A DNA stretch of 64,000 nucleotides from Bolinopsis microptera (lineage: Eukaryota; Ctenophora; Tentaculata; Lobata; Bolinopsidae): positions 4,400,001 through 4,464,000 of the forward strand of contig NC_087077.1 of NCBI RefSeq assembly GCF_026151205.1, given 5' to 3'. A model generated the notes under the pieces. That model saw only the letters and a program-made list of their open reading frames with translations. It was not told the DNA's origin and made no database searches. The translations under genes and the position numbers were made by a program. Numbering within the stretch: the stretch's first letter is position 1; each line of letters opens with the position of its first letter. Below are positions 6,385 through 49,480 of the stretch, piece after piece.

Positions 6385-9300
6385 GATACTACTAAAGAAA
6401 GTGGGTGGGTTAGTTAACTAGTTTTACAATTATCATATCAATAATCAGTCAATAGTGAATTAATAATATAATCAACAGTTTCAATCATCACTCTTAACAA
6501 TTTAATATCTTCAAACAGAAAGGACAGAAGATATCACTGCTATCAAAATCGCAAAAATTTAACAGGGAAATACAAAATAAAAGCGGAACAAAAAGTGTAC
6601 AAAAGCAAGTCTTATATAATAAAGAACAATGCTGCGTTCCCAAAATTAGATTTGTTCACACTGTTGACATTGCCCCTAGGGTGGTTCAACTAAACCAAAT
6701 TAAGGAGGATCTAGCAAACACAGGAGCAGTAGGAAACTGAACCAACAACATTGAGGCCAGCAGAATAAGACTAATTAATAAGTGACACACAGCGGAGGAC
6801 CGCAACTCCGCCCAGCATCTGCCAAGTGTTAATATTTCACGTCAGCAATACGATGACACTTGTTTCCTAAAATAGCGAGGAAACATCCGGCCAGAGTTTT
6901 AGGTTCTGTCAAAAGCTGCTCAACTCTCAATAACTCTGAAGAATGTGGGTCACCAGACTGCAACTGGTTAGTATAAAAGTAGTTAAAGTAGGAAAAGGAG
7001 GCGAGACACGCAGGGTTCACCAGCTGTCCGCACCTCCCCCTGGCAGTGCGGATAAATAACTTCTTTCTGCCGGCACAAAACACTAATTACACTCGTATCA
7101 GATAAGGAACACATTTCATCGGGGGATGAACATAAATACTGATAATTCAGTCAGATTTTGTGGCTTGGCTCCAGAAAGTCTTTAGGGATTATCGTCCAGA
7201 TTACAATAGATAAAAATATCGAGATTGGAACGATGGTTCTGCCGGTAACAGTTATCAGAAAGTCTTTGTTCGTGCGTGATAGAATCACAGCTACAAACTA
7301 ATGACCAGAACCCTCAACTAGGCTCTCATACTAACCAAGGTAAACCTCGCTATTGAGAAATGATGAAAGAAGCTCGTGACTCATGACCAACAACAGAAGA
7401 CTTTTTACAAGCTTGACTGAGCAGATCTTACTAACAACCTCAGTTATAATACAATTGTAAAGTAATTACAGGGAGGGTAGCTTGTAGTTTAAAACAATGA
7501 TCGGTATATATATTATATAAGTAAGTATATATATAGGGTATATAGTAAGATGATCGGTATGGCAATAACGAGGCGCCGGTAGACTTCTGTATGTTGTGGA
7601 GGCACATAATTACCTTTATATTGGATAACTAGCGGATAAGTATAGATAGAACAGATAGAAGAGGAAGAGTGGCTAGAAACTGTCACACGTACCTGAATCT
7701 ACTGAATGAGCAACTGTCACACATCTACTGAATTAGCTTTGAATGAGCTACTCAAAGTAAGAGTTGAGTATCACGCGAGCTGACTCCCACGTGACTAATG
7801 CTGCTATTCGAGTCAGGATAACTTGATACTATAATTCGATCTAACATCAGCCCCCGGGGTCACTCTTTCGTGTAATTACTAAATTTAGACTGGGCAGTAA
7901 GAGCTCAGCACAACGGCTGCCAGCCAATGACAGGAACAAAGAAGCAGTTAGAAGTTTTGACAGTGTACTTTTCAGAAAGTTCCTGACGATAGCAGTCCGG
8001 AGTTACAATATATTCTGCCGTTATGCTATGGGCGTTGTGGAATCCATGAGTCGACGACACATGAATATGAGACAACGTGTGGTGAACGACAGTTAGCCGA
8101 TTATGAAGTTGAATATATTATTCGATCGCATAATAATATTCAGTCCAGCAAAGAATCAAGTCACCAAAAAGTTATGCAGCCTACTCGAATGTTACGAGTC
8201 GCTTAACCTAATCAAATTAGAGCTGCGAGGAAGTAGTTGAGTTTCGCACAATCTGAGACACACATTTCGGAGTTTTGAAACATGTAGAGAACAGAATGGC
8301 AACACCCTCACGAGAGGGTGTGTGCTGCAGTATACACACTGCAGAGTGCAGACCACGAACATGTAGGCACACACGCAGCCGTATCAGTAAATTATATTAG
8401 GTGCAAACGACCTGGGATAATCGAAATCTGCTGCTCAAGAGAATCAAAGGCTAAATTGTAAAATTAGCCTTATCAGTTGTAACATAACACGGCCATGAAC
8501 CGGCGCATAATTAAACCTGTGAAAATATTATCACGTTTTCACCGGAAATACAAGTTTATATCACGAATTGTTAAGTTTACAGCAGGAAAGAAACAAGAAT
8601 TGAAAAGTGGATTGGTCGAGAAGCGTGGTGTTCAAGCAAAACATCGCATGCATGACTTGGTTTACGTAACTAGATAAGCGACAAATTCTATAGTTTGATC
8701 ACAAGCAAGAAGCATTGCAAAGTCAATAGGCTGATTTGTGGGCGTACTCAAGGAACACGGAAGAAAATCTCGAATGCAAATGCTGATTTTGCATTATAAG
8801 AATGGCCGCAGTAGCACAGAGTAGAATCTCTACAAAGCACACAATTCTGCGCGCGTTCCATACAAAGCACACAACTTTCACCTTTCCAGTACTTGCGACG
8901 CACAAAGAAAATTCGTCCGATGCCGAGTACAGGCGAGAATATCGACTGGAAGAATCACTTACAAAGCGGACTGGTCCACTGGAAACTAGACATTCTGATG
9001 GCAATCCGCAATTAGTTGATCCGCCAAACAGGAAACGCAAGGCATAAAATAGCCAAAATGGCACTCCCACACATAAACAAAACAATCAAATTAGAGAATC
9101 AAAGCGTTAAAATGACCTAAGCTTTATAAATACACACGATATCAATAAATTGAGAAGGAACAATAACTTTAACGGGGAGTCAGGTGACATGACAGGGTCT
9201 CGAGACAAGGATTCATGTGGCCTTGTTAGAAGTGTGAACAGCTCACAAGACTCATTGTAACAATTAATTGATTACACCGGCTAAGTGAATTGAAATAATA

Positions 9301-18181: not shown

Positions 18182-21100
18182 AACTGAGCAGTACCCACCC
18201 AGCACTGTTAGAACTGAGCACTGAGCAGAGGTCTCTACCCACCCAGCACTGTTAGAACTGAGCAGTAAGCAGAGGTCTCTACCCACTCAGTACTGTTAGA
18301 ACTGAGCAGTGAGCAGAGGTCTCTACCCACCCAGCACTGTTAGAACTGAGCAGTGAGCAGAGGTCTCTACCCACTCCGCACTGTTAGAACTGAGCACTGA
18401 GCAGAGGTCTCTACCCACCCAGCACTGTTAGAACTGAGCACTGAGCAGAGGTCTCTACCCACTCCGCACTGTTAGAACTGAGTAGTGAGCAGAGGTCTCT
18501 ACCCACCCAGCACTGTTAGAACTGAGCAGTGAGCAGAGGTCTCTACCCACTCCGCACTGTTAGAACTGAGCAGTGAGCAGAGGTCTCTACCCACTCTGCA
18601 CTGTTAGAACTGAGCAGTGAACAGAGGTCTCTACCCACCCAGCACTGTTAGAACTGAGCAGTGAGCAGAGGTCTCTACCCACCCAGCACTGTTAGAACTG
18701 AGCAGTGAGCAGAGGTCTCTACCCACTCCGCACTGTTAGAACTGAGCAGTGAGCAGAGGTCTCTACCCACTCAGCACTGTTAGAACTGAGCAGTGAGCAG
18801 AGGTATCTACCCACTCAGCACTGTTAGAACTGAGCAGTGAGCAGAGGTCTCTACCCACTCTGCACTGTGAGAACTGAGCAGTGAGCAGAGGTCTCTACCC
18901 ACTCAGCACTGTTAGAACTGAGCAGTGAGCAGAGGTATCTACCCACTCAGCACTGTTAGAACTGAGCAGTGAGCAGAGGTCTCTACCCACTCCACACTGT
19001 TAGAACTGAGCAGTGAGCAGAGGTCTCTACCCACCCAGCACTGTTAGAACTGAGCAGTGAGCAGAGGTCTCTACCCACTCCGCACTGTTAGAACTGAGCA
19101 GTGAGCAGAGGTCTCTACCCACTCCACACTGTTAGAACTGAGCAGTGAGCAGAGGTCTCTACCCACTCCGCATTGTTAGAACTGAGCAGTGAGCAGAGGT
19201 CTCTACCCACTCCGCACTGTTAGAACTGAGCAGTGAGCAGAGGTCTATACCCACTCCACACTTTTAGAACTGAGCAGTGAGCAGAGGTCTCTACCCACTC
19301 CGCACTGTTAGAACTGAGCAGTGAGCAGAGGTCTCTACCTGCTCCGCGCTGTTAGAACTGAGCAGTGAGCAGAGGTCTCTACCCACCCAGCACTGTTAGA
19401 ACTGAGCAGTGAGCAGAGGTCTCTACCCGCTCCGCGCTGTTAGAACTGAGCAGTGAGCAGAGGTCTCTACCCACTCCGCACTGTTAGAAGTGAGCAGTGA
19501 GCAGAGGTCTCTACCCACTCCGCACTGTTAGAACTGAGCAGTGAGCAGAGGTCTCTACCCACTCAGCACTGTTAGAACTGAGCAGTGAGCAGTGGTGTCT
19601 AGTCTCTACCCACTCAGCACTGTTAGAACTGAGCAGTGAGCAGAGGTCTCTACCCGCTCTGCACTGTTAGAACTGAGCAGTGAGCAGAGGTCTCTACCCA
19701 CTCTGCACTGTTAGAACTGAGCAGTGAGCAGAGGTCTCTACCCACTCCACACTGTTAGAACTGAGCAGTGAGCAGAGGTCTCTACCCACTCCACACTGTT
19801 AGAACTGAGCAGTGAGCAGAGGTCTCTACCCACTCCGCATTGTTAGAACTGAGCAGTGAGCAGAGGTCTCTACCCACTCCGCACTGTTAGAACTGAGCAG
19901 TGAGCAGAGGTCTATACCCACTCCACACTTTTAGAACTGAGCAGTGAGCAGAGGTCTCTACCCACTCCGCACTGTTAGAACTGAGCAGTGAGCAGAGGTC
20001 TCTACCCACTCAGCACTGTTAGAACTGAGCAGTGAGCAGAGGTATCTACCCACTCAGCACTGTTAGAACTGAGCAGTGAGCAGAGGTCTCTACCCACTCC
20101 ACACTGTTAGAACTGAGCAGTGAGCAGAGGTCTCTACCCACCCAGCACTGTTAGAACTGAGCAGTGAGCAGAGGTCTCTACCCACTCAGCACTGTTAGAA
20201 CTGAGCAGTGAGCAGAGGTCTCTACCCACTCCGCACTGTTAGGACCGAGTAGTGAGCAGAGGTCTCTACCCACCCAGCACTGTTAGAACTGAGCAGTGAG
20301 CAGAGGTCTCTACCCACTCCGCACTGTTAGAACTGAGCAGTGAGCAGAGGTCTCTACCTGCTCCGCGCTGTTAGAACTGAGCAGTGAGCAGAGGTCTCTA
20401 CCCACCCAGCACTGTTAGAACTGAGCAGTGAGCAGAGGTCTCTACCCGCTCCGCGCTGTTAGAACTGAGCAGTGAGCAGAGGTCTCTACCCACTCCGCAC
20501 TGTTAGAAGTGAGCAGTGAGCAGAGGTCTCTACCCACTCCGCACTGTTAGAACTGAGCAGTGAGCAGAGGTCTCTACCCACTCAGTACTGTTAGAACTGA
20601 GCAGTGAGCAGAGGTCTCTACCCACTCAGTACTGTTAGAACTGAGCAGTGAGCAGAGGTCTCTACCCGCTCTGCACTGTTAGAACTGAGCAGTGAGCAGA
20701 GGTCTCTACCCACTCTGCACTGTTAGAACTGAGCAGTGAGCAGAGGTCTCTACCCACTCCACACTGTTAGAACTGAGCAGTGAGCAGAGGTCTCTACCCA
20801 CTCCACACTGTTAGAACTGAGCAGTGAGCAGAGGTCTCTACCCACTCCGCATTGTTAGAACTGAGCAGTGAGCAGAGGTCTCTACCCACTCCGCACTGTT
20901 AGAACTGAGCAGTGAGCAGAGGTCTATACCCACTCCACACTTTTAGAACTGAGCAGTGAGCAGAGGTCTCTACCCACTCCGCACTGTTAGAACTGAGCAG
21001 TGAGCAGAGGTCTCTACCCACTCCGCACTGTTAGAACTGAGCAGTGAGCAGAGGTCTCTACCCACTCCGCACTGTTAGAACTGAGCAGTGAGCAGAGGTC

Positions 21101-21616
21101 TCTACCCACTCCACACTGTTAGAACTGAGCAGTGAGCAGAGGTCTCTACCCACTCAGTACTGTTAGAACTGAGCAGAGGTCTCTACCCACTCAGTACTGT
21201 TAGAACTGAGCAGTGAGCAGAGGTCTCTACCCACTCCGCACTGTTAGAACTGAGCAGTGAGCAGAGGTCTCTACCCACTCCACACTGTTAGAACTGAGCA
21301 GTGAGCAGAGGTCTCTACCCACTCCGCACTGTTAGAACTGAGCAGTGAGCAGAGGTCTCTACCCACTCCGCACTGTTAGAACTGAGCAGTGAGCAGAGGT
21401 CTCTGCCCACTCAGTACTGTTAGAACTGAGCAGTGAGCAGAGGTCTCTACCCACCCAGCACTGTTAGAACTGAGTAGTGAGCAGAGGTCTCTACCCACTC
21501 CGCACTGTTAGAACTGAGCAGTGAGCAGAGGTCTCTACCCACTCCGCACTGTTAGAACTGAGCAGTGAGCAGAGGTCTCTACCCACTCCACACTGTTAGA
21601 ACTGAGCAGTGAGCAG
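18182..21616. repeat. 44-bp satellite array, about 78 copies, with higher-order structure
   Basis: The unit is about ACTGTTAGAACTGAGCAGTG plus AGCAGAGGTCTCTACCCACTCCGC. Variation is concentrated in the CTCCGC/CCCAGC/CTCAGC segment. Rare variants recur in blocks. The CTATACCC...CACTTTTAG unit appears near 19241, 19908 and 20920. The CCTGCTCCGCGCTG block appears at 19337 and 20356. The spacings are 667 (15 units plus a 7-base insertion near 19590), 1012 (23 units) and 1019 bases. This indicates recent duplication of a block of about 1 kb. One short unit lies near 21175. Confidence 0.97.
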
Positions 21617-24453: not shown

Positions 24454-24456
24454 TTA

Positions 24457-25050
24457 TAGTACAGACAAATCCGTCTGAAAAAATCGATCTGCTGACACAC
24501 GAAGCTTTCAGAGGATTTTTGACGTTTTTGAGTCCTAATAGGTGCCCTCTATGGCTGACCAACTTTTCCAAACTTTTCCACGTGGCTTAAGGCCACTTTT
24601 TGCCACTTTTTACCACTTTTTACCACCTTTCTCGTATGTCAAATATCTAGCGTTCTGAATATCGTAGACAGTTCTAAATTGAACCCCGGTGTTCGTAATA
24701 TTAAGGAGAACAATTGTTTCTTCGAGAGTTTTCTTGTCAGATAATTAGATAATTGGCTAATTTATAATTAGCTAATTATTTTAAAAATCCAAAATTTTTT
24801 TTTGCTTAAAATGATCAAAATAACATGAAACGTGGAGAAAATTAGTTTTTAGAAAAATTAAAAATTTTTCGACTTAGAAAATTTTTCGACTTCGAAAAAA
24901 AAAATTTCGACAAAATTTTTTTTTGAATTTCCAAAAATTTTTGAGATTCGATATCAGTCATACATTGCACTATACTTTCTCGTGATACACAAACCTTTAT
25001 AATTTAGCGATATCGCTATTATCATAATCATAAATTTCAAGTTTGCAGAT
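24457..25050. repeat. Left terminal inverted repeat of the transposon (594 bp)
   Basis: Pairs with 31506-32076 almost throughout. About 23 bases (near 24975-24998, containing CTTTCTCGTGATACA) are present only in this arm. Short subrepeats CCACTTTTTGCCACTTTTTA lie about 135 bases from the tip, and A/T homopolymer blocks fill 24790-24950. Such subterminal repeats are typical transposase-binding sites (inference). Confidence 0.93.
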
Positions 25051-25374
25051 ACAGATCATGATAGAAGCCAGAAGGGGTTACGTTTCTTGTTTATCGTGAT
25101 CAGAATCTGCACATGATAGAAGGGGTTATGTTTCTTGTTTATCTTAATCAGAATCTGCACTTCTATAATGAAATATAACGCTGCCACACAATCCCTCATC
25201 TCAAAGAAACAGCAGTTTAGTTAAATCAACACAACCACCAATTTAACAACAACAGTTTAGTTAAATTAACACAACCACCATCCGCAGATCCTATTCTTCC
25301 CGCAATCACAATTCACAAGTTAAGTTTTCGTTTGCTACAAATCGTATTGTTTCTGCAAATCCCCTGTCTTTCCT

Positions 25375-28300
25375 ATGTTTCGCGAGCTTGCCATCAAAAT
25401 AAAGCTCCTAAAACAGTATGGAAAGAAAACGCAGGAAATCCGCAGTCTCTTATCTGGAAAGGAGATCGCCTACTGCCTCATATTATATCGTGTGGTAAGA
25501 ATTGTATCTTGTTCAGTATTTTATTATTACGGCTTTCTTTGAATTGTACGTTTTTTTTTCAAAATGCAAGTGCTTGAGTTGATACAATAGGGGGTGACGG
25601 TCGAGAGAAATGACATAGCAGTTACGAGGATAAATGCTCTGTTGAACGACTGGCTCAATGTCCCTAGTGTTGAGGAAAAAAAGAAGATTTACAAAAGCGT
25701 CTTCACCACATTATTCAAAATGGACACAGGTCAGTTATATTACTTTCGAGTTTTAGGTGCTGTTGTTTGTGCTCCAAAGTTGTCTAAATTTATCAATTAC
25801 CGTATGTATTTATCCTTATTAGCTTATTGACGGAAATATGGGCGATAAGAAATATAATCGTCAAATTGATCGTCTAGGTTCGGGTAAGGATGAGTACCAT
25901 ATTCGATCTGTGCAAAAATATTTAGCATTGGACAACAATTCTAAAGATGCGCTTAAATCGGCAATCAGAGGTATTTAAACATTTTTATCGTTCAAATTCG
26001 TTGAAATTGAATATTGAAACATCGCCTGATTATATATATAATAAATAGAACTAGAAATGATAAAATCAGCTTTTTGTCTGCAATCGGTATCCAAGAAATT
26101 CATGAGAATGTCAAATAAATTGAGCAGAGAGTCATATTTCACGATCACACTCCTCAGTTTACTACAATACTGACACTGAAGCAGTAGATGTTCTGAATGA
26201 AATTATTCCTCAAAGCGTGCAACCAGTAATACAAATATTACAATCATCTGACGCTGGTCCTTCTACTAGCAAGACTAAAGCTGAGATAACTAAAATTAGT
26301 GATCGATGCAAAATATGCTTAAAAGAAGACTTGTTAAAAAACCTTACGGTCATAACACGGAAGGTATTTTATAAAAACACACAACAGCATATTTTTCTTC
26401 TAAGTATTCATTTTTATTGATGAAATAATGTAATATTTTAAATCAAGATATGCAGTTCTTCGCCATCAATAGACATACGTTATAAACATATTAACATATT
26501 CAGGGAGTTGAGACATTACACTCGGCCGGGATTGAAATTCAAGTTGGCGATTTGTTCCACAACGTTTGCCGGCTAAATATCACAAGAAGAACCCGACCCT
26601 CAACTGCATCAACTGAATCAACAGTGAGAACAAGAAGTTCGGAATCGAATGTATTTTGCTTCCAAACACATTGTTTTTACTGCGGATTAAAAGTATCAGA
26701 TCGTTATCGCTATCACAACGAAACAAGATTTGTTGAAACCCTTGAGTGCAAGCTAACTGTAGACCAAGCTATAGCTAAGCGTCCTGCAGATGATCCATGG
26801 TGTCTCGAGGTAAGCTAAATTCCCACATAACTCTCATGCTCATAAAAAGGGTATGATAATAAAAAATTTCGTTTTATTTATATTGTGAAATGTTGTTGCA
26901 TGTTAATCACGCACGTGTATTCTCAGGTTTTAGGAAGGTTTAATACGGTTGTAGATCTTCCTGCTGCAGATGCCTGCTATCACAATGCATGTGCCATCAA
27001 TTTCAAATGTGGTTACGGTAAACCAAAGAAATTTGATTTAACAACACCTCACCCACCGAGAAAACGAAGGCATACGACAGAATCAATAGTGATCCCTCAA
27101 CGCTTACCGGATTTTTCCCGAATGGCTGCCTTTCTCACAATTATGAGAAAGTTTGAAGATTCTGAAACGGGAAGTGAAAAGTTAGCGGTCCTTCAAGATG
27201 AAATGGGTAAAATATCGGAGCCATATGGTGTTGTCTACATGAAAATGCAGATAAAGATACATTTTGATGATAACGTAGATTTCGTTGGTAAGTTATTTTA
27301 ACGACAATATTGTTCCAATCTTCCTTTAGAGAGTGCTGGTATTTTCAATGAGATGCACAAGTTGCAGCTAAATAACAAATTTTATTCCTGCAGATGGTCT
27401 TGTGATTATAACGAACCGGTCGTCTAGGATAATAAAAGACTTTTACGATAAGAAAGACAACTCATCTGAAATTGACGTTTCCAAAGAAAAGAAGAGAATA
27501 CTTAAAGCTGCCCTTGATGTGATGTTAGAGGAGATACGCACATTCGATAAGTATTCTTCGAAAACTGATGAATATCCTACAATTGTGGGTCAATCGGTAG
27601 ACGATCTGTTAAATGGTAATAGAATTTACGTATTCAAGTATTTAACACTACGTGGCATAAATTATTTATGATTTCTACTTGGGTTATTAGTTACACAATA
27701 AACAGTAAAAATTGTATAATGGCAAATCATTTCAGAGTTACCAGACCTTCTGAAGATGTTTGTTGAAGGTGTAGTGAAAACAAAAGTAAAGAGCAAGTCT
27801 AAAATGCTTGGTTTAGCACACTCTATATTAGCGGCTGTTAAGCCTGGCTCACTGATGTCACCTGTTCAACTAGGAATAGCAGTGACGGCGCACCATCTAT
27901 TTATGTCTGCATACCTAAACAAGATGCTGTCTTCGTTTGGATATGCATCTTCCTACCAAACTACACTCAATTTTGAAAAGTCAGCTGCAGTTACTCAGTC
28001 GAAGTCAACATCTAAACCTGGCGACTCTTTCGGGCAGTTCATTGCCGATAACGTTGATGACAACCCAGACACATTACACGGCAAGGACTCTGTACACGCA
28101 ATGGGGATTATGGTGGCAATGACTCCAGGTGTTATAACAAGCCTAACTATCAAAAAAGAAACCGTTTCTGTGGACAAACTTAAGTCCATGTCTGATGGCA
28201 ACATAAAAGTTTGTATGATCAAAGAAGCCAAATTCCTCAAAAACGTAAAATTTCTGGATATTTTTGGAGACATCCCATCTTTTACGTATCCAGAAAGTGA

Positions 28301-31300
28301 CCTGCTCTACATCACGTCAGCTGCTTTAGGGACTAAGACTCCATTATGGTCTGGCACAATGCAGGCAATGACACGAGGGCAACATCCTAAACCATCGTCG
28401 TTCCATTTTCTTCCTCTCATCAACCTGCAGCCGAGTAGTATCGACTGTGTCTATTCTACTCTGGTTTACATTAAGGAAGAGTGCAAGAAAATGGACTGCT
28501 ACCCTGTAGTGACTTTTGATCAGCCGCTATACTTTAAAGCAATGTCACTTACAAAGGCACAGGACTCTGATGTCTCGGACGTGTTTGTTCGGCTAGGGAC
28601 CTTTCACCTAATGATGTCCATACTTGCTTGTATTGGATACATAATGAAAGGATCTGGCCTAGAGGAAATCATAGGCCAATGTTACTCGGAGGTCACAGTG
28701 AAAGACATTATGAAAGGTAAAGCCTTTAATCGGGCTATAAGGGCCCATTCGATCGTCCACAGGGCTCTTTTCTACCTTCTCATCGAGGATAAAGTAGACT
28801 CTACTTTGACGAATGATGAAAAGATATCGCTCATGAGCTATCATCAGCGTCTTTCGGACAAAGAAGATCCCTGCGAAGTGAAGGACCTCAAGGAGCAGGG
28901 ACTCTTCAAAAAGCTGAGGGACATAATCCACGAGGCCAAAATAGAGCAGAATGAATCAAAAACGTCTAAGTTATGGTTACAGTACTTAGAAATGGTCGAC
29001 ATTCTTTTCGAACTCTATCGTGGTGAAAGGATTGGTGATGTCAAACAATCAATTTCTGCCAAAAAGCACATACTACCATATCTTGCAGCAGGTGATGATA
29101 AAATAGTACTTTTATATGTTTCCAAAATCGATTAACTAAGTATGGTTACGATTTCGTATTTAACCGTGTTTCTCTCTGCTGCAATGTTATATACTTTTAA
29201 TTAAAGCCAATTTAGGTAACCGTAATCATTACACTACTTCGTTGTGGCTCGATATTCAAGAAATGGAACAGCTGCAGTCAACACATCCTCAACTAAAGAA
29301 CTTTGTAGGATCTGATTTAGATTCGATTCGGCGATCTGATAGATTTTGGGGAGGTGAGTGTCTTGTATTCAATAACGTGCTAATGAGCTGATTATCGTCA
29401 TAATCATTTAGAAATATTTTATCACAATTAAATCTACCGCAACAATTTGTAAATCAAACACCTATTGATAAGTCTATTTCCAGCTATTTCAACCGACCAA
29501 ATCATAGAACAAGTTCTTATGAAATCTTTGAAGTCAAGAGGAGGTATGACTGGACCAGGAAAAGGCTTAAACGTTGAAGCCTCAAGGAACCAGTGGATTC
29601 ATAGTCGGCCAATTTGCGCAGCTGTAAGCAGGTTTGTCTGCGTTAATAATATTGAAGAATGAACGATCATTTTTATCCACTACTCCTGCTTATACTTAAG
29701 TAAATTTTACAGAGCACATCAAACTCTAAAACCTAGACACTTTCAGTGCAATCCAGAGTGTAGCAGGAGTTGCTTACTCCACAAGTGACCAGCATCAGCA
29801 GGCCTCAGAATCAAGAGTAGACGTTGACACACAAGATTTTGAAAAGATATGCTTATTTCTAGAGGAGAGGGAACCTTTTAGGGACAATGATGAGCTGGTA
29901 AACATTGTCAATGGTGTTCAGGCAGGGGAGTATGTTACAGCTCACAAAGCTCTAATGTTAGGAAATTGTATAGTCAATAGTATGGTTTCTAAAGAAATTA
30001 AGAAGTACAAATTTTCCCGAAAGATGGCAGTCGTCAATATGGCTGCTGTCTTAATTAAGGAAAAGAGTAGATCATACACCATCGATCCTAACCTCCTCTT
30101 CCAAAGACTTTTGTCTTCAATCATACTACGCCGAAACGATGTTGATATTGCCACAGTCTTCTGCCATGAGCTGTGTGCATTTCCTACAAGACTATTTTCT
30201 GCAGAAAAAATGATGCTATCCTCCGAAAATAAGTCACAATTCACTAACAAATTCCCCGTCCTAGATGATACGGAAAGTAGTAACAGAAGTGGGATGAGAT
30301 ATGTTATCGATGGAGGTATGCTTCTTCATCGCATTGCATGGAAGATTGGGTCTTCCTATAATGACATATGTGCCAGCTATGCTTCTTTTCTGTCAACGTA
30401 TCCATTGTGTACGATTGTATTTGATGGATACCATTGTAATTCAACTAAAGACATGGTCCACAATGTACGAGGGAGAAATCTCAACTGCTGTAACATTACA
30501 CCAGAGTTCTCTACTGCACTTACTGTAAAAAAGCCACAGTTCTTGTCTAACTCAAACAACAAGCAAAGATTCATCAACCTTCTCTCTGAATATTTGACGC
30601 AGTCAGGATTTACCTGCATACACGCTTCGGCTGACGCAGATGTACTTATTTGCAGGACTGCTATGGATATATTTAAAGATAAGAACAATGTGACTGTAGT
30701 TGGTGACGATACTGATCTATTGGTTATTCTTACCGATATGACAAAAAATGTCGTATTCAGTAGATGGAAAATCTATATGTCCACGAAAGCCCATGTTTAT
30801 GACCTACAAGCACTTAAACATCATCTTGGAGATAAAGTGGTTTCCTCGATATTAGTTTTACATGCATTCACAGGGTGTGATACGGTAAGCCGCATCTTCG
30901 GCGTCGGCCAAGACAAACTGTTGAAAATGAGGAATAAGTTAAGTGAAGCAGATCTTGATGTTTTTTACAGCCCTACTGCAACAAAAGAGGAAGTCAAGTT
31001 AGCCGGGGAGAATTTGTTTTCGATCCTATTGAGTCTCCTCCCCACTGATGCTACACTTGATGCAGCACGGTTACGACTGTTTAATGCCAAGGTCGTCACC
31101 GGGGTAACTGCCATTGAAAGTACATCTCTACCACCTACTTCAGCAGCCGCTTTGGAACATTCTCTGAGAGTCTACCATCAAGTTCAAACGTGGCTCGAAA
31201 ATGACTTGCAACCTACCGATTGGGGATGGAAACTCGTCAACGGACAACATATTCCTGTAACGTCACAACTTCCGGCAGCCCCCAGTCATATCCTAGAAAT

Positions 31301-31424
31301 CATTCATTGCAAATGCAAAGCCGGCTGCAAACACCAACAATGTAGCTGTCTGAAGCATAACATAAACTGTGGACCTGGATGCACTAACTGTTTGGACAAT
31401 TGCGAAAATCGTACAGACGACTAA
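25375..31424 (+). CDS. Transposon protein: transposase-like region + XPG/FEN1-like nuclease + CXC zinc motif
   Basis: Exons read by splice consensus and phase: 25375-25494, 25823-25970, 26158-26363, 26504-26809, 26927-27287, 27394-27615, 27736-29091, 29216-29353, 29484-29631, 29747-31424. This is 1,561 codons with no stop or frame break. Exon 26504-26809 has a Cys/His pattern (HNVC...CFYC) and the next has CYHNAC, likely zinc ligands. In 27736-29091 the candidate catalytic acids lie in IADNVDDN (Asp near 28047), VVTFDQPLY (Asp near 28518) and GSGLEE (Glu near 28662). The last exon has the nuclease acids in YVIDGG, IVFDGY, SADADV, GDDTDLL and AFTGCDT, then CKCKAGCKHQQCSC and further Cys. This protein family is abundant in animal genomes. 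An extra open segment at 25591-25729 has a good acceptor and donor, but including it breaks the frame at 25823, so it may be an alternative exon or my error. The N-terminus is the least certain part. Confidence 0.85.
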
Positions 31425-31505
31425 TAATAATATCAATTTCGGATCATTTATCTATACTATAATTTAATGTACTAAATGAATATGTTATATTAAGCTTATT
31501 TTACA

Positions 31506-32076
31506 ATCTGCAAACTTGAAATTTATGATTATGATAACAGCGATATCGCTAAAATATAAAGGTTGCAATCTATGACTGATATCGAATCTCAACAATTTTT
31601 GGAAATTCAAAAAAAAAATTTTGTCGAAATTTTTTTTTGTAAGTCGAAAAATTTTCTAAGTCGAAAAATTTTTAATTTTTCTAAAAACTAATTTTCTCCA
31701 CGTTTCATGTTATTTTGATCATTTTAAGCAAAAAAAATTTTTGGATTTTTAAAATAATTAGCTAATTATAAATTAGCCAATTATCTAATTATCTGACAAG
31801 AAAACTCTCGAAGAAACAATTGTTCTCCTTAATATTACGAACACCGGGGTTCAATTTAGAACTGTCTACGATATTCAGAACGCTAGATATTTGACATACG
31901 AGAAAGGTGGTAAAAAGTGGTAAAAAGTGGCAAAAAGTGGCCTTAAGCCACGTGGAAAAGTTTGGAAAAGTTGGTCAGCCATAGAGGGCACCTATTAGGA
32001 CTCAAAAACGTCAAAAATCCTCTGAAAGCTTCGTGTGTCAGCAGATCGATTTTTTCAGACGGATTTGTCTGTACTA
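31506..32076. repeat. Right terminal inverted repeat of the transposon (571 bp)
   Basis: Inverted copy of the left arm, beginning ATCTGCAAACTTGAAATTTA and ending GGATTTGTCTGTACTA, followed by the TTA target duplication. It lacks the roughly 23-base insertion present on the left. Confidence 0.93.
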
Positions 32077-32079
32077 TTA

Positions 32080-34689: not shown

Positions 34690-36475
34690 GAATAGAGGGT
34701 AAAGAAGCTGAAACTACAAGACAAGAGTAACAGAGAGGGTAAAGTAAGAGAGGGTAACTACACAACAAGTGTAACGGAGAGGGTAAAGTAAGAGAGGGAA
34801 ACTACAAGACAAGAGTAACAGAGAGGGTAAAGTAAGAGAGGGTAACTACACAACAAGTGTAACGGAGAGGGTAAAGTAAGAGAGGGTAACTACAAGACAA
34901 GAGTAACAGAGAGGGTAAAGTAAGAGAGGGAAACTACAAGACAAGAGTAACGGAGAGGGTAAAGTAAGAGAGGGTAACTGCAAGACAAGAGTAACAGAGA
35001 GGGTAAAGTAAGAGAGGGTAACTACAAGACAAGAGTAACAGAGAGGGTAAAGTAAGAGAGGGTAACTACAAGACAAGAGTAACAGAGAGGGTAAAGTAAG
35101 AGAGGGTAACTACAAGACAAGAGTAACAGAGAGGGTAAAGTAAGAGAGGGTAACTACAAGACAAGAGTAACAGAGAGGGTAAAGTAAGAGAGGGTAACTA
35201 CAAGACAAGAGTAACAGAGAGGGTAAAGTAAGAGAGGGTAACTGCAAGACAAGAGTAACAGAGAGGGTAAAGTAAGAGAGGGTAACTACATGACAAGAGT
35301 AACGGAGAGGGTAAAGTAAGAGAGGGTAACTACAAGACAAGAGTAACGGAGAGGGTAAAGTAAGAGAGGGTAACTGCAAGACAAGAGTAACAGAGAGGGT
35401 AAAGTAAGAGAGGGTAACTGCAAGACAAGAGTAACAGAGAGGGTAAAGTAAGAGAGGGTAACTACAAGACAAGAGTAACAGAGAGGGTAAAGTAAGAGAG
35501 GGAAACTACAAGACAAGAGTAACAGAGAGGGTAAAGTAAGAGATGGTAACTGCAAGACAAGAGTAACAGAGAGGGTAAAGTAAGAGAGGGAAACTGCAAG
35601 ACAAGAGTAACAGAGAGGTTAAAGTAAGAGAGGGTAACTACAAGACAAGAGTAACAGAGAGGGTAAAGTAAGAGAGGGTAACTGCAAGACAAGAGTAACA
35701 GAGAGGGTAAAGTAAGAGAGGGTAACTACAAGACAAGAGTAACAGAGAGGGTAAAGTAAGAGAGGGTAACTACAAGACAAGAGTAACGGAGAGGGTAAAG
35801 AAGCTGAAACTACAAGACAAGAGTAACGGAGAGGGTAAAGTAAGAGAGGGTAACTACAAGACAAGAGTAACGGAGAGGGTAAAGTAAGAGAGAGTAGCTG
35901 CAAGACAAGAGTAACAGAGAGGGTAAAGTAAGAGAGAGTAGCTGCAAGACAAGAGTAACAGAGAGGGTAAAGTAAGAGAGGGTAACTGCAAGACAAGAGT
36001 AACGGAGAGGGTAAAGTAAGAGAGAGTAGCTGCAAGACAAGAGTAACAGAGAGGTTAAAGTAAGAGAGGGTAACTACAAGACAAGAGTAACGGAGAGGGT
36101 AAAGTAAGAGAGGGTAACTACAAGACAAGAGTAACAGAGAGGGTAAAGTAAGAGAGGGTAACTACAAGACAAGAGTAACAGAGAGGGTAAAGAAGCTGAA
36201 ACTACAAGACAAGAGTAACAGAGAGGGTAAAGTAAGTGAGGGTAACTACACAACAAGTGTAACAGAGAGGGTAAAGTAAGAGAGGGTAACTGCAAGACAA
36301 GAGTAACAGAGAGGGTAAAGTAAGAGAGGGTAACTACAAGACAAGAGTAACAGAGAGGGTAAAGTAAGTGAGGGTAACTACAAGACAAGAGTAACAGAGA
36401 GGGTAAAGTAAGAGAGGGTAACTACAAGACAAGAGTAACAGAGAGGGTAAAGAGAGGTTAGCTGCAAGACAAGAG
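34690..36475. repeat. 44-bp minisatellite, about 40 copies
   Basis: The unit is about AGAGTAACAGAGAGGGTAAA plus GTAAGAGAGGGTAACTACAAGACA, purine-rich on the plus strand. Variants (ACGGAG, ACTGCAAG, GAGAGTAGC, ACACAACAAGTG) recur in blocks. Four junction units carry GTAAAGAAGCTGAAAC (near 34700, 35800, 36190) and mark block boundaries. The minus strand is open in all three frames because the unit has no stop, so the long Leu/Ser-rich frames are not taken as genes. Confidence 0.96.
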
Positions 36476-48097: not shown

Positions 48098-49480
48098 GCT
48101 CTGAGCAACACTGGATACATGTTTGGAGGCCTGTAGCTGTAGCTGCCTACTCTGAGCAACAATGGATACATGTTTGGAGGCATGTAGCTGTAGCTTCCTA
48201 CTCTGAGCAACACTGAATACATGTTTGGAGGCATGTAGCTGTAGCTGCCTACTCTGAGCAACACTGGATACATGTTTGGAGGCATGTAGCTGTATCTGCC
48301 TACTCTGAGCAACACTGGATACATGTTTGGAGGCCTGTAGCTGTAGCTGCCTACTCTGAGCAACACTGGATACATGTTTGGAGGCATGTAGCTGTAGCTG
48401 CCTACTCTGAGCAACACTGGATACATGTTTGGAGGCCTGTAGCTGTAGCTGCCTACTCTGAGCAACAATGGATACATGTTTGGAGGCCTGTAGCTGTATC
48501 TGCCTACTCTGAGCAACACTGGATACATGTTTGGAGGCCTGTAGCTGTAGCTGCCTACTCTGAGCAACACTGGATACATGTTTGGAGGCATGAAGCTGTA
48601 GCTGCCTACTCTGAGCAACACTGGATACATGTTTGGAGGCCTGTAGCTGTAGCTGCCTACTCTGAGCAACACTGGATACATGTTTGGAGGCATGTAGCTG
48701 TAGCTGCCTACTCTGAGCAACACTGATACATGTTTGGAGGGCATGTAGCTGTAGCTGCCTACTCTGAGAACACTGGATACATGTTTGGAGGCATGTAGCT
48801 GTAGCTTTCTACTCTGAGCAACACTGGATACATGTTTGGAGGCATGTAGCTGTAGCTTCCTACTCTGAGCAACACTGATACATGTTTGGAGGCATGTAGC
48901 TGTAGCTGCCTACTCTGAGCAACACTGGATACATGTTTGGAGGCATGTAGCTGTAGACTGCCTACTCTGAGCAACACTGGATACATGTTTGGAGGCCTGT
49001 AGCTGTAGCTGCCTACTCTGAGCAACACTGGATACATGTTTGGAGGGCCTGTAGCTGTAGCTGCCTACTCTGAGCAACACTGGATACATGTTTGGAGGCA
49101 TGTAGCTGTAGCTGCCTACTCTGAGCAACACTGGATACATGTTTGGAGGCCTGTAGCTGTAGCTGCCTACTCTGAGCAACACTGGATACATGTTTGGAGG
49201 CATGTAGCTGTAGCTGCCTACTCTGAGCAACACTGGATACATGTTTGGAGGCCTGTAGCTGTAGCTGCCTACTCTGAGCAACATTGGATACATGTTTGGA
49301 GGCCTGTAGCTGTAGCTGCCTACTCTGAGCAACACTGAATACATGTTTGGAGGCATGTAGCTGTAGCTGCCTACTCTGAGCAACACTGGATACATGTTTG
49401 GAGGCATGTAGCTGTAGCTGCCTACTCTGAGCAACACTGGTCACATGTTCGGAGGCCTGTAGCTGTAGCTGCCTACTCCT
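48098..49480. repeat. 51-bp minisatellite, about 27 copies
   Basis: The unit runs CTGAGCAACACTGGATACAT, GTTTGGAGGCCTGTAGCTGT, AGCTGCCTACT. As 51 is 17 codons and the unit lacks stops in several frames, long open frames arise on both strands (up to 228 codons on the minus strand). One-base gains or losses near 48724-48771, 48955 and 49045 shift the frame, which argues against coding selection. Confidence 0.96.

Follow-up and report, generated by a model that had tools for sequence, protein, structure and literature searches.

The 64,000-nucleotide stretch of the Bolinopsis microptera genome analysed here (assembly GCF_026151205.1, contig NC_087077.1, positions 4,400,001 to 4,464,000; hereafter the window) contains, at positions 24457-32076, a 7,620 bp element that has long inverted arms and is flanked by a TTA target-site duplication. 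We interpret this element, with a probability of roughly 0.83, as an autonomous cut-and-paste DNA transposon of the AcademX type, which moved very recently and which would act by the mechanism proposed below. That the element is a transposon is very likely, and its membership of AcademX, set by the published description of that lineage, is only slightly less so.

The element begins with the tip TAGTACAG at position 24457, ends with CTGTACTA at position 32076, and is bordered by TTA on both sides (Table 1). Its inverted arms match each other over 514 nt at 98% (24456-24969 with 31564-32077) and over a further 59 nt at 97% (24992-25050 with 31506-31564); terminal inverted repeats, which are a feature of AcademX, are present as arms of 594 bp on the left and 571 bp on the right. 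When duplication lengths from 2 to 12 were tried, 3 was the sole match. An earlier interpretation of the same DNA (hereafter the sequence-only reading) had claimed both tips, both long arms and a TTA duplication, and arm pairing together with duplication-length scoring confirmed all of them.

The sequence-only reading had also proposed to search the genome with the 594-bp arm for other copies. This search with the left arm was run and returned one further full-length copy, located at G000:C6:4303762-4311381, 120,695 bp from the window copy (which starts at G000:C6:4424457) on the same chromosome, and identical to it at 7,620 of 7,620 bases. The 700-bp flanks of the two copies are 28% and 27% identical, which corresponds to background, and, leaving aside a short inverted repeat within one of them, the 300-bp flanks of both match only their own places. 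Because the second copy is identical, lies at an unrelated site and has a duplication of its own (TAC), the element moved very recently; by the rule of three, zero differences would put the upper 95% bound on divergence at about 3/7,620, or 0.04%. No empty site was found in the assembly when the joined flanks of both copies were searched, a one-haplotype assembly being unable to show an empty allele. The chance of a random second site so close would be about 0.0009 (2 x 120,695/264,652,675, for an assembly of 264.65 Mb), and the 121-kb spacing, from this one pair, hints at local hopping. The two copies are the only ones of the 7.6-kb form among the matches listed.

Irrespective of how splice sites are chosen, the element has two long open frames, 27720-29135 and 29730-31424. 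Nine GT-AG exons were added to them, with splice sites picked to keep the frame open, which resulted in an 11-exon model of 4,767 nt comprising 1,588 codons plus stop and zero internal stops. This bears out the unbroken spliced gene of about 1,560 codons and at least ten exons reported earlier, with some 30 codons more. Since the splice sites were chosen to preserve the frame, the open frame is by itself no proof of the model. Relatives lend the model independent support: the one at locus L014 has a single intronless open reading frame (ORF) of 1,342 residues, which aligns to residues 550-1588 and separately to residues 373-565 of the spliced protein, so that the alignments cover junctions 6/7 to 10/11. 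This alignment has a gap of five residues at junction 6/7 and small gaps near junction 10/11, and the relative at L023 is likewise interrupted at junction 7/8. At exon 10/11 an alternative splice pair looks possible and the exon 10 donor is uncertain, while exons 1-4, for which no homology support was found among the 12 loci compared, are putative and come from the model alone. The gene is apparently intact, judged from its predicted frame.

In this single predicted frame, a transposase-like region is fused to a FEN/XPG-like nuclease and a CXC motif, in agreement with the three-part fusion that had been read from the sequence. The motifs then named start in the spliced protein at residues 587 (DNVDDN), 742 (TFDQPLY) and 788 (GSGLEE) for the transposase-like region, and at residues 1215 (YVIDGG), 1324 (SADADV), 1349 (GDDTDLL) and 1406 (GCDT) for the nuclease. 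The fusion of transposase and nuclease in one frame also occurs in the uninterrupted ORFs of L014-L018, which together with that of L020 range from 1,068 to 1,556 residues. The genome thus seems to hold intron-rich and intronless Academ-like forms side by side. Besides the window element, about five diverged Academ-like lineages were observed in it (L014, L015, L016, L017, L018 and L020).

The nuclease region was compared with the PDB using a trimmed profile, which matched EXO1 (E 0.0014), GEN1 (0.046) and a 5'-3' exonuclease (0.24). Of the ten rows obtained, the best seven were of the FEN kind (EXO1 five times, GEN1, and the 5'-3' exonuclease), and the last three, with E from 1.1 to 1.5, were unrelated proteins. 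Across an alignment of ten rows, every row has the VID aspartate, an AD preceded by an acid, DxD and GxD, and nine rows have the VFD aspartate. The two-metal site of FEN1 has seven acid positions, and all seven of the acids mapped to them by motif order (Table 1) are found in the window copy. That this region is a nuclease of the FEN/XPG kind is probable, on the profile and the motif order rather than on a strong sequence match; none of the single proteins searched reached the cut-off of a Pfam nuclease model, XPG_I included. Own-genome searches returned at least 80 matches for exon 11, the two copies included, and six places for XPG_I, one of which is apparently the host's own XPG (named by eye). 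Relatives of the element were absent from three scans of viral contigs, two sets of prokaryote genome contigs held no usable stretch for relatives, and a scan of prokaryote contigs with a piece of the host XPG for FEN1 proteins found none.

For the transposase region, the own-genome search with exon 8 gave at least 84 matches, namely both copies plus 82 pieces with identities of 22-47%. Conservation was counted over 11 rows of differing coverage (the window copy, L014-L018, L020, L022, L008, L013 and L019), which represent fetched loci with long frames; L021, L023 and other exon 8 loci were left out, and most of the listed exon 8 (84) and exon 11 (80) places lie outside these counts. D587, N588, D590 and H603 were invariant in 7/7 aligned rows, D744, G770, H773, S789 and G790 in 10/10, and Y940, D985 and K997 in 11/11, with E989 kept in 10 of 11. 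Among the aligned rows, the best-kept acids are D587, D744, D985 and E989. As catalytic acids of an Asp-Asp-Glu (DDE) site we propose D587, D744 and E989, with D985 as an alternative for the last; about 240 residues separate this last acid from D744. A low-confidence AlphaFold model of exon 8 places a strand ahead of D744 and mainly helix after it; a helical insertion before D985/E989 would fit this model, unproven as it is. DUF6589 (PF20231) may be a distant relative of the transposase region: of five relatives, L016 (E 3.3e-4) and L020 (E 5.6e-4) matched it over this region below cut-off, and the Pfam search of the window protein gave no match to it. A genome search for DUF6589 yielded two sub-cut-off matches at other places, and its controls were also without signal.

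At the C terminus, the CXC motif is recognised by a longer family profile, which matched the LIN54 CXC domain in the PDB (E 0.012). The Pfam TCR model was above cut-off in the relative L018, and in the window protein reached E 0.25, below cut-off; in L017 the CXC falls outside the long ORF.

The AcademX lineage is reportedly credited to Kojima (2020), and its nuclease is one that we take to be of the XPG type. In PMC10045372, AcademX is described as having 3 or 4-bp duplications and a nuclease, and its sister lineage AcademH as having 9-10-bp duplications and a helicase; the differing duplication lengths are suggested there to relate to the nuclease and the helicase. In the present genome all 14 elements that were scored have a 3-bp duplication, and a nuclease, recognised below the Pfam cut-offs from weak E-values and ordered acidic motifs, is encoded together with the transposase. 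Because the 3-bp duplications and the nuclease match the description printed in PMC10045372, the anatomy fits AcademX, and the Academ-like identity given in the sequence-only reading is supported. Its statement that the family is usually seen as fragments was overstated, since 100 full-length Academ consensus elements were curated in bivalves (PMC10294476) and one Academ-1 gain was counted in mutation-accumulation lines of Daphnia magna (PMC8594854). Going by these sources, intact Academ elements are already known and the window element is a well-preserved further example.

Membership of another CXC-bearing superfamily (such as KDZ/Zisupton or Dada), with the nuclease likeness being superficial, is improbable. 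Cysteine-rich CxC motifs also occur in KDZ proteins, and the sequence likeness of the nuclease is weak, with no Pfam nuclease model passing; against this, KDZ is absent from the Pfam matches of the window protein (E up to 5) and of five relatives (E up to 1), and the uniform 3-bp duplications and the nuclease fit AcademX. An own-genome search for KDZ (PF18758) found nothing, but its controls gave no signal either, so it is no proof. AcademH, or another helicase-bearing Academ branch, is the least probable of the alternatives: a similar transposase would be expected of a lineage named as sister to AcademX, but the 9-10-bp duplications and helicase given for AcademH in PMC10045372 contrast with the 3-bp duplications found here and with the Pfam search of the window protein, in which no helicase was matched. 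Nearly as improbable is an origin of the two identical copies by segmental duplication or assembly error, with no transposition. Their closeness on one chromosome agrees with such an origin, but the identity ends at the tips, the 700-bp flanks are unrelated, each 300-bp flank pair was found once, and each copy has its own 3-bp duplication.

Within the transposase itself, the third catalytic acid might instead be E792 of GSGLEE, which would place the whole D-D-E core within exon 8, as the list of motifs in the sequence-only reading implies. Eight of 10 rows keep E792, beside the invariant S789-G790, but L020 has G and L019 has D at this position, while D985 and E989 are conserved in 11/11 and 10/11. 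A catalytic core role for GSGLEE is not supported; we consider E792 unlikely, and prefer E989, or D985, as the last acid.

Several observations weigh against the AcademX interpretation and the enzymatic parts assigned to it. Five of the seven FEN-type rows represent one protein, EXO1, whose matching stretches are individually insignificant (i-Evalues 1.2 and 16); no Pfam model was above cut-off on the window protein; and none of the six XPG_I places is among the exon 11 matches listed. The transposase profile, built from five rows, gave 0 hits in the PDB, and the conservation rows are not independent, as L008, L013 and L022 group with L014, and L017 is near L015. Single-sequence AlphaFold models had a mean predicted local distance difference test score (pLDDT) of 38.3 for exon 8, which is unusable as fold support, and of 33.8 for the nuclease, likewise unusable. 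The class was set from a published description of the lineage. Finally, the non-coding elements described below, whose arms are only about 81% identical to that of the window element over 468 bp, may be moved by another family.

These non-coding elements belong to a wider family with matching tips. The 30-bp tip pattern occurs in the genome 72 times in forward and 73 times in reverse orientation, both counts being whole, while a reversed control gave 0 and 0. Among the 100 places listed, at least 42 facing pairs were counted by hand, at least 31 of which span 2.6-3.2 kb; besides the autonomous copies, eight listed pairs exceed 3.2 kb. Nine loci of such or similar length (L025-L033) and three of the longer ones (L034-L036) were fetched. 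The nine share with the window element an arm about 81% identical over 468 bp, and beyond arm pieces show no match to it at E 1e-5. ORFs of more than 120 codons occur in three of these nine stretches, flanks included (L026, 144; L029, 121; L032, 121), and in none of the other six. L034 and L035 contain short-family matches and long ORFs that look retrotransposon-like by eye, and L036 contains a nested element and nuclease fragments. The 14 elements scored for duplications comprised both autonomous copies, eight short elements (the ninth, L029, was excluded because of its altered left tip), L034, L035 and two in L036; their duplications were TTA (three), ATA (three), TAC (two), TAT, CAT, CTT, AAA, AAT (L033) and CTC, and in L031 a length of 2 bp also fits. 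At positions 2502-5695 of L036, an element with slightly different tips and a CTC duplication, with nuclease fragments inside, is nested in another element.

Based on this anatomy, we propose that the protein would bind the arms via its N-terminal Cys/His-rich region, its C-terminal CXC motif, or both. An RNase-H-like DDE core (D587, D744 and E989, or D985 in place of the last), with the last acid behind an insertion of about 240 mostly helical residues, would then nick one strand per end and join this strand at a 3-bp stagger to target DNA. The FEN/XPG-like nuclease in the same protein might, with less confidence, cut or trim the other strand, as a 5' flap, and so complete excision; the protein may also mobilise the non-coding elements with matching tips. 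The second-strand role of the nuclease is tentative, and the full scheme of a single-chain, two-nuclease transposase, in which a DDE site with D985/E989 as third acid joins one strand and the FEN-like nuclease cuts the second, is more doubtful still. The link between duplication length and the nuclease or helicase drawn in PMC10045372 is consistent with a direct part of these enzymes in the reaction, without saying which part.

If the scheme is true, two nucleases of different descent share excision within one eukaryotic polypeptide. No functional test of the Academ nuclease in transposition was found in the literature searched (Academ/AcademX/AcademH, XPG nuclease), in which subscription papers are thinly covered. 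Two full-length copies that are identical, a gene that is open, precisely defined ends, and dozens of elements sharing the tips make the question of the nuclease directly testable, by separating a nuclease-dead protein from a DDE-dead one. The conservation counts name the acids to change, and argue against the glutamate of GSGLEE as the best candidate.

Table 1. Features of the AcademX-type element, in window coordinates.
Feature	Position	Strand	Basis
Left target-site duplication, TTA	24454..24456	.	duplication scoring
Left terminal inverted arm, 594 bp, tip TAGTACAG	24457..25050	+	arm pairing
Putative exon 1	25375..25494	+	GT-AG model; no homology support
Putative exon 2	25591..25729	+	GT-AG model; no homology support
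Putative exon 3	25878..25970	+	GT-AG model; no homology support
Putative exon 4, Cys/His-rich region begins	26158..26363	+	GT-AG model; no homology support
Putative exon 5, Cys/His-rich	26504..26809	+	model; L023 covers part
Putative exon 6	26927..27287	+	model; L023, L014 in part
Putative exon 7	27394..27615	+	model; L023, L014
Exon 8, transposase core, D587 (28047-28049), D744 (28518-28520)	27736..29091	+	open frame, own-genome matches, conservation
Putative exon 9	29216..29353	+	model; intronless L014 aligned across its junctions
Putative exon 10, D985 (29495-29497), E989 (29507-29509), proposed third catalytic acid	29484..29631	+	model, conservation; donor uncertain
Exon 11 with stop: linker, nuclease, CXC	29747..31424	+	open frame, own-genome matches
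FEN/XPG/EXO1-like nuclease region; D1218, D1256, D1326, D1328, D1351, D1353, D1408	30297..30995	+	motifs, profile
CXC (LIN54/tesmin-like) zinc motif	31308..31406	+	Pfam, PDB profile
Right terminal inverted arm, 571 bp	31506..32076	-	arm pairing
Right target-site duplication, TTA	32077..32079	.	duplication scoring

Outside the element, the window contains a tandem array at 18192-21616 (44-bp unit, about 78 copies, 94% matches) and, at 34712-36452 and 48099-49478, further arrays with 44-bp and 51-bp units. In total, 28 tandem-repeat rows, some of them overlapping, were found at a score of at least 200.

Compared with AcademX as described in PMC10045372, the window element shares the 3-bp target duplication and the combination of a transposase-like region and a nuclease in one element, while three features, namely the CXC motif, the pair of identical copies and the proposed site at D985/E989, are described only from the present genome. 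AcademH, the other lineage of the same superfamily in that text, differs in having a helicase instead of a nuclease, and 9-10-bp duplications. DUF6589 resembles the relatives L016 and L020 below cut-off and leaves the window protein unmatched. The likeness to Tesmin/LIN54 lies in the family profile, which matches LIN54, and in L018, which passes Pfam TCR; here, in contrast, one motif is located at the C terminus of a transposase, and the window copy is below cut-off. With FEN1, EXO1, XPG and GEN1 the nuclease shares the order of the acidic motifs VID, VFD, (E/D)AD, DxD and GxD, EXO1 and GEN1 being the top PDB profile hits, but it is weakly alike, below Pfam cut-offs, and fused to a transposase-like region. 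The proposed excision by two nucleases would be comparable in logic to that of Tn7, in which TnsA acts together with TnsB.

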